Positions 5,936 to 47,354 of a DNA stretch of 64,000 nt are shown in pieces. Both the position numbers and the translations under genes were made by a program. The notes beneath the pieces were generated by a model. It was not told the DNA's origin. It searched no databases and saw nothing but the letters and a program-made list of their open reading frames with translations. This DNA is from Desulforhabdus amnigena. Lineage in GTDB: Bacteria > Desulfobacterota > Syntrophobacteria > Syntrophobacterales > Syntrophobacteraceae. Where the stretch lies: contig NZ_BSDR01000001.1 of NCBI RefSeq assembly GCF_027925305.1, positions 3,986,501-4,050,500 on the forward strand, written 5' to 3'. The stretch's first letter is position 1, and each line of letters opens with the position of its first letter.

Positions 5936-7366
5936 TCAATCTTCTTTGAACTTTGAAAGGATATCTTTGAAAGCTTGCTGAAGGATCGGGAGTTCGTTGG
6001 GCTGAAGGGTCCGGACATCCATGAGAAAAAGGTCGGATTCGATGCGTCCGATGATAGGGGGAGTGTTGTTTCTGAGGAAAAGCTCAATTTTCCGGGTGCT
6101 CATTCGGTGTGACCGGACCGCAACCACATAGGTCGGGAGGTTTTGTGCCGGCAGAGACCCGCCACCTACCTGCGAGGAACTGGACTGCACTTTTATCTGA
6201 AGGGCTTTGCGGGTATCCGCTTCCCCAATGAGGGATGCCAGGCGATGTGCCCGTTCTTCCAGCACCGGCAGAGGGGTCGTGATCATTCGAAGTGTCGGTA
6301 TCCGCTCCATTGCCAGCCTTTCATCCCGGTAGAGGCGAAGAGTTGCTTCAAGAGCGGCCAAGGTCATTTTATCTACGCGAAGTGCACGCGTCATTGGGTT
6401 TTTCTTGCAGCGCCCGATCAATTCTTTCTTTCCCAGTATGACTCCCGCCTGTGGCCCGCCCAGCAGTTTGTCTCCACTGAAAGTAACGATATCGGCGCCC
6501 CCGCGGACAGTTTCCTGAACAGTGGGCTCACCCTGTAAACCGAAGGGGGCGAAGTTCAGGAAAGAACCGCTTCCCAAATCCTCCACCACCAGCAATCCAT
6601 GCTTTCTCCCCAGGGCGACCATTTCTTCCAGCGGGACTTCCGAGGAAAACCCAATGATGCGGTAATTGCTGGTGTGAACTTTCATGAGCAGCGCCGTCGC
6701 TTCGTTGATGGCCGACTCGTAATCTCTCGGATGAGTACGATTGGTGCAACCCACTTCACGCAGGATGGCTCCGCTGCTGCGCATTACATCAGGAATCCGG
6801 AAGGATCCTCCGATTTCCACAAGTTGTCCACGGGAGACAATGACCTCTTTCCCTGCGGCCAGAGTGTTCAACACGAGGAAGACTGCGCCTGCGTTGTTGT
6901 TGACCACCAAAGCGGCTTCCGCTCCGGTCAGTTCGCACAGTATGGCCTCGGCATGCACGTAGCGTGAACCTCTCCGACCTTTTTCCAGGTCGTATTCGAG
7001 GTTGTTGTAGCTGCAGCAAAGTATTTTCAAACGTTCGACGGCTTCTTCAGGGAGAAGGGATCGCCCCAGATTGGTGTGAATCACAATGCCGCTTGCATTG
7101 ACTACGGGACGCAGGGTGTGGCCACTGATCTGCCGGAGACGATCGAGAATGAGTTGCACGAGGCGTGGTGGTTCGAGGTCGGCCTCATGAAGTGATTCTT
7201 CTTGACCAAGAATGCTCTTTCTTTTGGCCTCCAAAACGTGGCGTATACTTTCAAGAAGGAGTTTACGCGGGTGTCGGGTGAGCGCCTCCTGCAGCGGTTC
7301 CATTTGGAGCAAGGCATCCACACCGGGAAGCTTGCGAAGCAAATCCTGGACTGACATTCTAGCCAT
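5936..7366 (-). CDS. selA: L-seryl-tRNA(Sec) selenium transferase
   Basis: SelA is a PLP enzyme that converts seryl-tRNA(Sec) to selenocysteinyl-tRNA(Sec) using selenophosphate. The 476-residue product has the family N-terminal helical domain ('LRKLPGVDALLQ'), the 'NASGIVIHTNLGRSLL' segment near 90-105, and the PLP-binding lysine K300 in 'SGDKLLGGPQAG'. Length and motifs are normal. selB, selC and selD were not seen in the window. Its presence shows the cell makes selenocysteine, which supports the TGA-containing gene at 46074-46340. Confidence 0.97.
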   Translation of the reverse strand: MARMSVQDLLRKLPGVDALLQMEPLQEALTRHPRKLLLESIRHVLEAKRKSILGQEESLHEADLEPPRLVQLILDRLRQISGHTLRPVVNASGIVIHTNLGRSLLPEEAVERLKILCCSYNNLEYDLEKGRRGSRYVHAEAILCELTGAEAALVVNNNAGAVFLVLNTLAAGKEVIVSRGQLVEIGGSFRIPDVMRSSGAILREVGCTNRTHPRDYESAINEATALLMKVHTSNYRIIGFSSEVPLEEMVALGRKHGLLVVEDLGSGSFLNFAPFGLQGEPTVQETVRGGADIVTFSGDKLLGGPQAGVILGKKELIGRCKKNPMTRALRVDKMTLAALEATLRLYRDERLAMERIPTLRMITTPLPVLEERAHRLASLIGEADTRKALQIKVQSSSSQVGGGSLPAQNLPTYVVAVRSHRMSTRKIELFLRNNTPPIIGRIESDLFLMDVRTLQPNELPILQQAFKDILSKFKED

Positions 7367-45761: not shown

Positions 45762-46073
45762 ATATCCTCCATATTTATTTTTATAAACCAGCGCGTAATA
45801 TAATCGAAGAAGAAAATCTCTAGCAAGTGCTCTTTTGTGGTTCCCAGCGGTTCTCATTTTGAAAAGTGAATACCTCCCATGCTCCCTCAAGGGATAATTT
45901 GCCTGGGTAAAGTCTCCCTTTGATAGAAAAGGGGGATTGAGGAGAATGTCGGAAGTGACGGCATCATGTCGAAATGAGAACTGCTGTGCAGTTCCTGCAA
46001 AAGTGGTGAGGAATATTTGTAATAGTTTTAAAGAGCTAAAAAGTTTATACAGCATGAAAAAGGAGGTAGTTCA
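45762..46073. other. Divergent intergenic region upstream of the selenoprotein candidate
   Basis: This 312-base gap contains a C/G-run block near 45875-45950 ('tccctttgatagaaaagggg' and 'ggattgaggagaatgtc') like the element at 22950-23055. At its right end lies the very strong ribosome site aaaaaggaggt (46057-46067) of the next gene. No separate gene was found. Confidence 0.4.
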
Positions 46074-46340
46074 ATGACGAGCGAGGATGTGTCTTCTGGA
46101 AAAGAAAGTGAGAAAAAACCTTGGACGGATTATCGGTCGGACTGCTGATCCGGATTTCAGGACGTAAGTTTACGTCTGAGATTTCTAAGGCCGGGGGAAA
46201 GCTTTCAGATCCTTTGTACTTTGGAACAAAAGGGCAAGTTCGAGAGGGTAATCGCCAGGAACGATGGAGAAGCGATTGTCGAAAAAAGCCTGCCGGATGG
46301 TGTCTTGATTCGCGTTTACAAGTCCGGTGGATCGAGTTGA
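46074..46340 (+). CDS. Candidate TusA/SirA-like selenoprotein (in-frame TGA at codon 25)
   Basis: Translated through TGA at 46146-46148, this gene gives 88 residues. The first 24 codons end 'WTDYRSDC', then Sec25, then an open frame to a natural TGA at 46338-46340. After the TGA the protein reads 'SGFQDVSLRLRFLRPGESF' and later 'ARNDGEAIVEKSLPDG', which aligns with TusA sulfur-carrier proteins: TusA has D-x-R, its catalytic Cys six residues after the D, then a helix and PG about 16 residues on. Here D19, R21 and U25 keep that spacing. A strong aaggagg lies seven bases before the ATG. A SECIS-like hairpin begins just after the TGA, and selA is present in the window. If it is not recoded, this would be a 24-codon stub. 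The C-terminal sequence is well kept, which argues for a working gene. Confidence 0.72.
46152..46184 (+). promoter_or_regulatory. Bacterial SECIS-like hairpin
   Basis: Directly after the TGA the RNA can pair 46161-46166 with 46171-46176 around an AGUU loop (46167-46170). The stem continues with 46157-46159 against 46177-46179 after a bulged G at 46160, and weaker pairs extend further down. The loop begins 18 bases after the TGA and has a G in its second position, both within the described limits for bacterial SECIS elements read by SelB. Confidence 0.65.
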
Positions 46341-46379: not shown

Positions 46380-47183
46380 TCAGGAAAGCCTGGTGGGAAT
46401 TTGATAACTGCAGGGTACCTCACAGGCACACTTGCCGCAAACATCCACCAGGGGAAGATCATCGTAGTGGGCATCATTTCGCAGGCACTGCTCGTAACAT
46501 GCGTGCCGATCATAATGAGTCTTATGCAGGGCGTCGTATTTACACTTTGCGACACAGGCAAAACAGTTGCGGCCTGCCTTCACGAGGCACCATTCCCGGT
46601 CGGGACGTTTTGTTGAGGGGAGGGACATGCTCGTGACCAAGCTTCCCAATCGCCCGCAGCATCCCGATGATGTGATGAGCAGGTTGTGGTATCCGAAGGT
46701 CCCTAAGCCTGCAATATAGCCGATGTGTTTGTGGGACCAGCCACTGATGAGTTTCTCCGTATCGAAGTTATGAGTCGCGGGCGTAATGACCGTCTCATGC
46801 CCCTCTTTTTCCAGGAAGGATTTCAAATACATGCTGATGTCCTGGATGAGTCGGTTGGTCGTTACGTAGGATTCAGCCCACGAGCGGGCTGCAAAGGGTG
46901 TGGACTGATCGTTTTCCCGCCCCAGAGTTTTTTGGAAGGGCAAGAAAAACACAATGACGGATCGAGCTTCAGGAAGTAGATCCTGAGGTATGGAATGTTC
47001 CGGTCCCACGACTTCACGAAGTTTGAGGAAAAGGGGATCATCCGCGTTGGCTATACCTACCAGCGCTTCTCTCCAGTAGTTTTTTTCTCCTTTTTGGTCA
47101 AGCCGGCATTTGATGGTCGATTGAATTTCTTTTTGTAACCAGGATACCGCTTCACTGGCCAATGGATCATGGGAGATCGACAT
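46380..47183 (-). CDS. QueG-like iron-sulfur protein
   Basis: The 267-residue product resembles epoxyqueuosine-reductase-like proteins. It has 'LLPEARSVIVFFLPF' near the start, a central 'GWSHKHIGYIAGLGTFGYHN' region, and a C-terminal two-cluster ferredoxin-type region with cysteines in 'CLVKAGRNCFACVAKC' and 'CGKCACEVPC'. True QueG uses cobalamin and two 4Fe-4S clusters to make queuosine; this shorter form is common in anaerobes and its substrate is uncertain. The ATG at 47183 follows aaggag. It converges on the selenoprotein candidate with 39 bases between. Confidence 0.8.
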   Translation of the reverse strand: MSISHDPLASEAVSWLQKEIQSTIKCRLDQKGEKNYWREALVGIANADDPLFLKLREVVGPEHSIPQDLLPEARSVIVFFLPFQKTLGRENDQSTPFAARSWAESYVTTNRLIQDISMYLKSFLEKEGHETVITPATHNFDTEKLISGWSHKHIGYIAGLGTFGYHNLLITSSGCCGRLGSLVTSMSLPSTKRPDREWCLVKAGRNCFACVAKCKYDALHKTHYDRHACYEQCLRNDAHYDDLPLVDVCGKCACEVPCSYQIPTRLS

Positions 47184-47354
47184 CTTTTCTCCTTGTTTTA
47201 TTGCGACAATGTAAAATGATTTCGTGTAGGCTCTCGAAAAAAAGCATTTTATCGTCAAGAGCCTTTTCGGTCAATGTGCCATATCGAAGAGGGTGCTATC
47301 CAAAGTGATTGGATTCAAGCTACATGTTGGAATTGGGAGTCCCAATATGCATCC

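Follow-up and report, generated by a model that had tools for sequence, protein, structure and literature searches.

The TusA/SirA superfamily (PF01206) includes E. coli TusA, YeeD (TsuB) and DSY4693, and the mark of the TusA sulfur carriers is a CPxP motif. YedF (TIGR03527) combines a SirA domain with a DsrE domain. SirA-domain YedF was previously tied to selD, and the regulator LysR_Se to Sec metabolism (PMC5322559, PMC2432076). In M. maripaludis, the TusA and TusD transcripts rise by 4.5-4.6 log2 units upon selenium depletion, and the mode of selenium sensing by HrsM was called unresolved in the same paper (PMC11097638). The delivery of selenium to SelD in vivo was also called unresolved (PMC13188914).

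TusA and SirA proteins are absent from a 2026 inventory that covers 119 prokaryotic selenoprotein families (PMC13188914), and a term search of three further surveys from the open literature gave none either (PMC12013277, PMC9312934, PMC2398784). Kivenson et al. name a 'sulfurtransferase', not further specified, as one of the previously known selenoproteins (PMC8318568); this is probably of the rhodanese type. The family described here carries an adjacent Cys-Sec pair. Such a pair is also found in KCU-star, SaoL, SaoC, HgcA, CopZ-type form 2 and MbdU (PMC13188914); each of these is catalogued under another protein family.

Results

A short gene with an in-frame TGA in a genome with complete Sec machinery

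We analysed a 64-kb stretch of the Desulforhabdus amnigena genome, hereafter the window, in which the following features are relevant to this work:

46060..46066, plus strand: Shine-Dalgarno AAGGAGG, 7 nt upstream of the start codon, read from the sequence
46074..46340, plus strand: predicted selenoprotein gene of 88 residues with Sec25 and a TusA-fold domain at residues 16-85 (read-through translation, conservation in 77 genomes, AF2 model, fold search)
46143..46148, plus strand: TGC-TGA, the invariant vicinal Cys24-Sec25 pair; Cys precedes the TGA in 62/62 sequences
46160..46177, plus strand: bacterial SECIS hairpin GGACGTA-AGTT-TACGTCT, stem 46160-46166 with 46171-46177, loop 46167-46170 with the conserved G at 46168 (covariation, pair table, synonymous-recoding null)
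5936..7366, minus strand: selA, L-seryl-tRNA(Sec) selenium transferase (TIGR00474, 620.6 bits, cut-off 267.9)

The gene layout is directly seen in the sequence and agrees with the initial annotation: the AAGGAGG site precedes an ATG at 46074, which is followed by 24 codons, a TGA at 46146-46148, 63 codons and a stop TGA at 46338-46340. The gene was also said to be missed or cut by standard gene calling. Indeed, the mechanical list of open reading frames of at least 60 aa has no entry in its frame at 46074-46340, because the TGA leaves only 24 codons on one side and 63 on the other. When the window gene was compared with the copy from the same genus, the substitutions located 3' of the TGA were distributed 12/13/35 on codon positions 1/2/3, and this third-position excess indicates that the region after the TGA is under protein-level selection. 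A frameshift, which had been named as a possible source of error, is excluded by the frame common to 77 genomes. We also considered, and ruled out, that TGA is an ordinary sense codon here, since the gene and many of its homologues terminate at TGA and the full Sec system is present.

The selA gene announced in the window was confirmed at 5936-7366 on the minus strand. Elsewhere in the same genome, we found selB, a tRNA-Sec (anticodon UCA) and selD, the latter itself with one in-frame TGA; the absence of selB, selC or selD, against which the initial annotation had cautioned, is therefore not the case. A YedF gene adjoins the TGA-bearing selD, that is, a Sec-containing SelD (G000:C1:1265315-1266918). 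In the phylum sample, selB is present in every carrier of the family, which is weak evidence because 353 of the 395 phylum genomes have selB.

Distribution of the family

The read-through protein was looked for by a six-frame search of the window's genome and its relatives, and was found in 18 of 98 genomes, its own included. In these 18 genomes, the inner stop is always TGA and there is nearly always exactly one; in G016, the apparent second one is the terminal stop of the gene. A contig search with the single sequence gave Desulforhabdus sp. TSK (74% identical) as the sole match. With the family profiles A1 and A3, 25 and later 31 of the 395 phylum genomes were positive. Profile searches also gave 31 positive genomes out of 85 in one class, plus one partial match, and 24 out of 46 in another. 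In total, 77 distinct genomes of one phylum contain a near-full-length match, each with one TGA, in counts that include close relatives and with profile searches that cover this one phylum.

In the phylum sample, a sharp gap separates the weakest TGA-bearing member (E 4e-15) from the next matches (E 1e-5 or worse), which have no TGA at the site. Six full-length TGA-less matches were read and proved to be TusA-type domains of the ordinary kind, with a CP motif. Neither the profile searches in one phylum nor, in other phyla, the single-sequence query gave a Cys orthologue, and the only Cys counterparts of the family are remote CPxP TusA proteins. It had been proposed to search for homologues with Cys or Sec at position 25: many orthologues carry Sec there, and none with Cys was found in the searched genomes. 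According to the authors of deep-Sep, a Cys homologue seems to exist for every known selenoprotein, and a selenoprotein that lacks one can be discarded by their filter. The family, which is matched by no NCBIfam model (June 2026), may have been overlooked so far because it has no Cys homologue in the searched genomes.

A divergent second branch (L041, L042, L043, L073-L078, L084) was also observed, mostly with a DSRxxCU motif and with two extra residues before the second strand. The frames of these loci reach further 5', and some include stretches that are hydrophobic or resemble a signal peptide or a lipoprotein; the start codons of these loci are uncertain.

A SECIS hairpin under selection at the RNA level

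In bacterial SECIS elements, the apical loop lies about 16-37 nt after the UGA. The search for such an element downstream of the TGA, suggested as a check in the initial annotation, led to the hairpin at 46160-46177, which begins 11 nt 3' of the UGA and respects this distance rule with an apical loop located ~19-20 nt after the UGA. RNAalifold applied to 18 sequences found this hairpin, with compensatory changes. In the named helix, 97.6% of the cells are paired and 7 cells show double changes. The covariation score of the helix is 0.223, as high a value being obtained in 0 of 500 shuffles and slid versions of the helix giving at most 0.112. The four innermost pairs are kept in 61, 61, 61 and 60 of 61 sequences, and 60 of these sequences have the loop G.

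Because the hairpin is itself coding, synonymous codons were resampled. The observed pairing was 5.93 out of 6 pairs, against 3.85 under the null (sd 0.11, maximum 4.23 in 1000 draws), and all four inner pairs were formed in 98% of the cases versus 16% under the null; as the sequences are related, the numbers of these hairpin statistics are not independent. For the window gene alone, the recoding test gave a P of 0.014. The excess of pairing over the recoding null therefore indicates a selection at the RNA level that exceeds the protein constraint. When the hairpin region is folded by itself, its minimum energy is only mildly unusual (z -1.74), and the case for the hairpin rests on covariation and on the recoding test, not on folding energy. 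The Rfam scan of the 64-kb window gave no match, and neither did RF00031 on the genome, a negative result that is uninformative since this model describes eukaryotic SECIS elements.

The protein is predicted to adopt a TusA fold

An AF2 model built with 32 homologues, U being modelled as Cys, reached a pLDDT of 89.5 and shows the order b-a-b-a-b-b. Foldseek with this model returned YeeD as the top but weak match (E 4.7e-3). The first five VIA-align ranks are all TusA-family structures, namely YeeD (Z 9.9 and 9.7), the SirA-like DSY4693 (8.9) and E. coli TusA (8.8 and 8.1), matched over 69-70 residues at 2.0-2.6 A, and unrelated rows start from 7.9 down. When the family was aligned by hhalign with eight TusA domains, a probability of 96.6 was obtained (P 6.9e-10), and profile searches between the family and TusA matched in both directions. 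The TusA/SirA fold proposed initially is thus borne out by the AF2 model, VIA-align and hhalign. In Pfam TusA (PF01206) searches, a match was obtained for only 5 of the 32 members (best E 1.5e-4), all the scanned members staying below the gathering score, and the window protein gives no match. As a single query, the protein has no useful match in Pfam and NCBIfam, and the PDB sequence search with the family profile returned only a designed repeat protein and chance matches. Judged by these sequence comparisons, the family is a remote TusA homologue and not a PF01206 member by score.

The family and the TusA/SirA superfamily have in common the predicted b-a-b-a-b-b fold, the length, the PG turn, a D-x-x-G before the active residues, and reactive residues at the start of helix 1. 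In contrast to TusA with its CPxP, the family has a Cys-Sec pair and one residue fewer before helix 1. Because CPxP is replaced by C-U-x-[GA] in all sequences, we file the family as a TusA-fold relative and not as TusA. YedF resembles it by a TusA-type domain tied to selenium metabolism but differs by its C-terminal DsrE domain, its CP motif and its lack of Sec; the protein studied here has 88 residues, a single domain and no NCBIfam match, and does not belong to TIGR03527.

Two TusA-type sequences are reported here as separate observations. The window's genome encodes a TusA-family protein (L055, G000:C1:3415740-3415946, minus strand) in which Cys-Pro is changed to Ala-Pro (GVLAPYCLL), the usual catalytic Cys being missing. 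In another genome, an ABC transporter ATPase of the phosphate type, which by eye resembles PstB, is extended at the C-terminal end by a fused TusA-type domain (IDLKGTTCPGNF...) (L044, G246:C1:1867158-1870364, minus strand).

Position of the Cys-Sec pair

The residue before Sec is Cys in 62 of 62 sequences (61 tabulated sequences and L084), and position -6 from Sec is Asp in 60 of the 61 tabulated ones. The C-U pair that the initial annotation saw in place of Cys-Pro-x-Pro is thus real and invariant. Where TusA reads D-x-x-G-x-x-C-P-x-P, the family reads D-x-x-G-x-C-U. From the conserved Gly to helix 1 the family thus has one residue fewer, and Cys-Sec can be aligned in two ways: as x-Cys, Pro being lost, or as Cys-Pro, Sec standing for Pro. 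The hhalign comparison and the helix register place Cys24 on the TusA Cys and Sec25 on Pro, whereas several HMMER single-sequence alignments place Sec25 on Cys with loss of Pro. In terms of register, the helix spans residues 24-37 here and 19-30 in the TusA model, where Cys is residue 17, and the PG turn is offset by 7. The earlier statement that Sec replaces the catalytic Cys agrees with these single-sequence alignments and is less favoured by hhalign and the helix register. Since the Cys-Pro bond of YeeD is cis and located at the helix start (PMC11073785), replacing or losing Pro makes a markedly changed motif. It is firm that Cys and Sec stand next to each other at the active end of a TusA fold.

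Genomic neighbourhood

Of the 30 loci in the class to which G234 belongs, 25 have a LysR gene immediately upstream in the same orientation. This count omits L140, whose LysR match is on the opposite strand, and includes L029 and L030, which are near copies; contig ends truncate some of the remaining five loci. The LysR gene ends anywhere from within a few bases of the selenoprotein start region to about 320 nt ahead of it, and at several loci the two genes overlap or abut. Both LysR proteins that were scanned exceed the cut-off of NF040786 (selenium metabolism-associated LysR regulator). LysR_Se/HrsM (NF040786) is a transcription factor and, in this class, a neighbour and not a homologue. At L130 (G451), the upstream LysR_Se gene is apparently in two frames, owing to a frameshift or an assembly error.

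The window's genome also has a LysR_Se gene, at another place than the selenoprotein gene, and in the window's own order the selenoprotein gene stands alone, without a LysR_Se neighbour. Clustering of conserved neighbours in this order gave an uncharacterised protein and a CbiK-like chelatase at varying distance, with no clear function. Downstream of the selenoprotein gene, the window encodes a Cys-rich protein without Pfam match (46380-47258, minus strand), relatives of which also lie downstream of the selenoprotein gene in six more loci from this order, the distance being variable.

Discussion

The single TGA in 77 genomes, none of which has Cys, together with the coding constraint, the SECIS covariation and the Sec machinery, supports the reading of this gene as a selenoprotein gene, and we hold it as nearly certain that it encodes a selenoprotein with a TusA fold. 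If TGA 46146 were instead a true stop, the locus would encode a 24-residue peptide or be a decayed gene whose downstream similarity is a relic. Such a reading could invoke that the read-through is known from comparative evidence alone and that family libraries have no model for the protein, but it is hardly credible given that the frame and its TGA are kept in 77 genomes, that substitutions 3' of the TGA are of the coding type, that the SECIS hairpin covaries, and that the genome has the complete Sec machinery.

We regard the family as a new, apparently Sec-obligate one with a TusA fold and a probable role in selenium or sulfur trafficking or sensing. According to the comparative evidence, the UGA at 46146 is decoded as Sec25 by SelA, SelB and tRNA-Sec, with the help of the SECIS hairpin, and structure prediction and profile comparison point to a small single-domain TusA-fold product. 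Cys24-Sec25, which stands where helix 1 begins, in the place of the TusA Cys-Pro, could bind reduced selenium or sulfur as a perselenide- or persulfide-type adduct. This adduct would then be passed on, the protein carrying or reporting selenium within selenium metabolism (SelD, YedF, LysR_Se). We lean, by a modest preference, towards this whole reading of a Sec-decoded TusA-fold protein whose Cys-Sec pair takes up and hands over selenium or sulfur, in selenium delivery or sensing. It is supported by the TusA-fold evidence, the LysR_Se neighbourhood (25/30) and the literature on LysR_Se, YedF and the link between TusA and selenium; the missing CPxP, the restriction of the LysR_Se neighbourhood to one class and the lack of a Pfam TusA match for the window protein speak against it. 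More tentatively, and with real doubt, the Sec-only family could be a dedicated selenium carrier or status sensor, giving selenium held as perselenide to SelD or a signal to LysR_Se, the gene of which precedes its own in what looks like an operon. As its own synthesis needs Sec, the protein level would track the selenium supply, and Sec-gated translation would close a feedback loop.

Two other functions were considered for the pair. In mammalian thioredoxin reductase, a Cys-Sec pair at the C-terminus alternates between the selenol-thiol and selenenylsulfide states. Cys24-Sec25 could do likewise in a redox enzyme without carrier role, the reduced substrate being a peroxide, a disulfide or an oxidised selenium species. 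The invariance of the adjacent Cys-Sec in 62/62 sequences is in line with this, as is the view that most catalogued prokaryotic selenoproteins are redox proteins (PMC13188914). However, the fold is that of TusA and not of the thioredoxin type, the neighbourhood in one class points to selenium metabolism, and no reductase partner gene recurs among the neighbours, and we consider a redox enzyme unlikely. Even less probable is a protein for binding or detoxification in which the pair serves as a ligand of soft metals or metalloids such as mercury, arsenic or copper: SaoL, SaoC, HgcA and MbdU, which have adjacent Cys-Sec, are linked to mercury or metal binding (table of PMC13188914), yet the protein has no sequence match to these families and no metal resistance or transport gene recurs among its neighbours.

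Returning to the carrier reading, a TusA-fold selenoprotein gene located right after LysR_Se is a testable candidate for selenium delivery to SelD or for sensing by LysR_Se/HrsM. More generally, selenoprotein families without Cys homologues can escape current gene finders.
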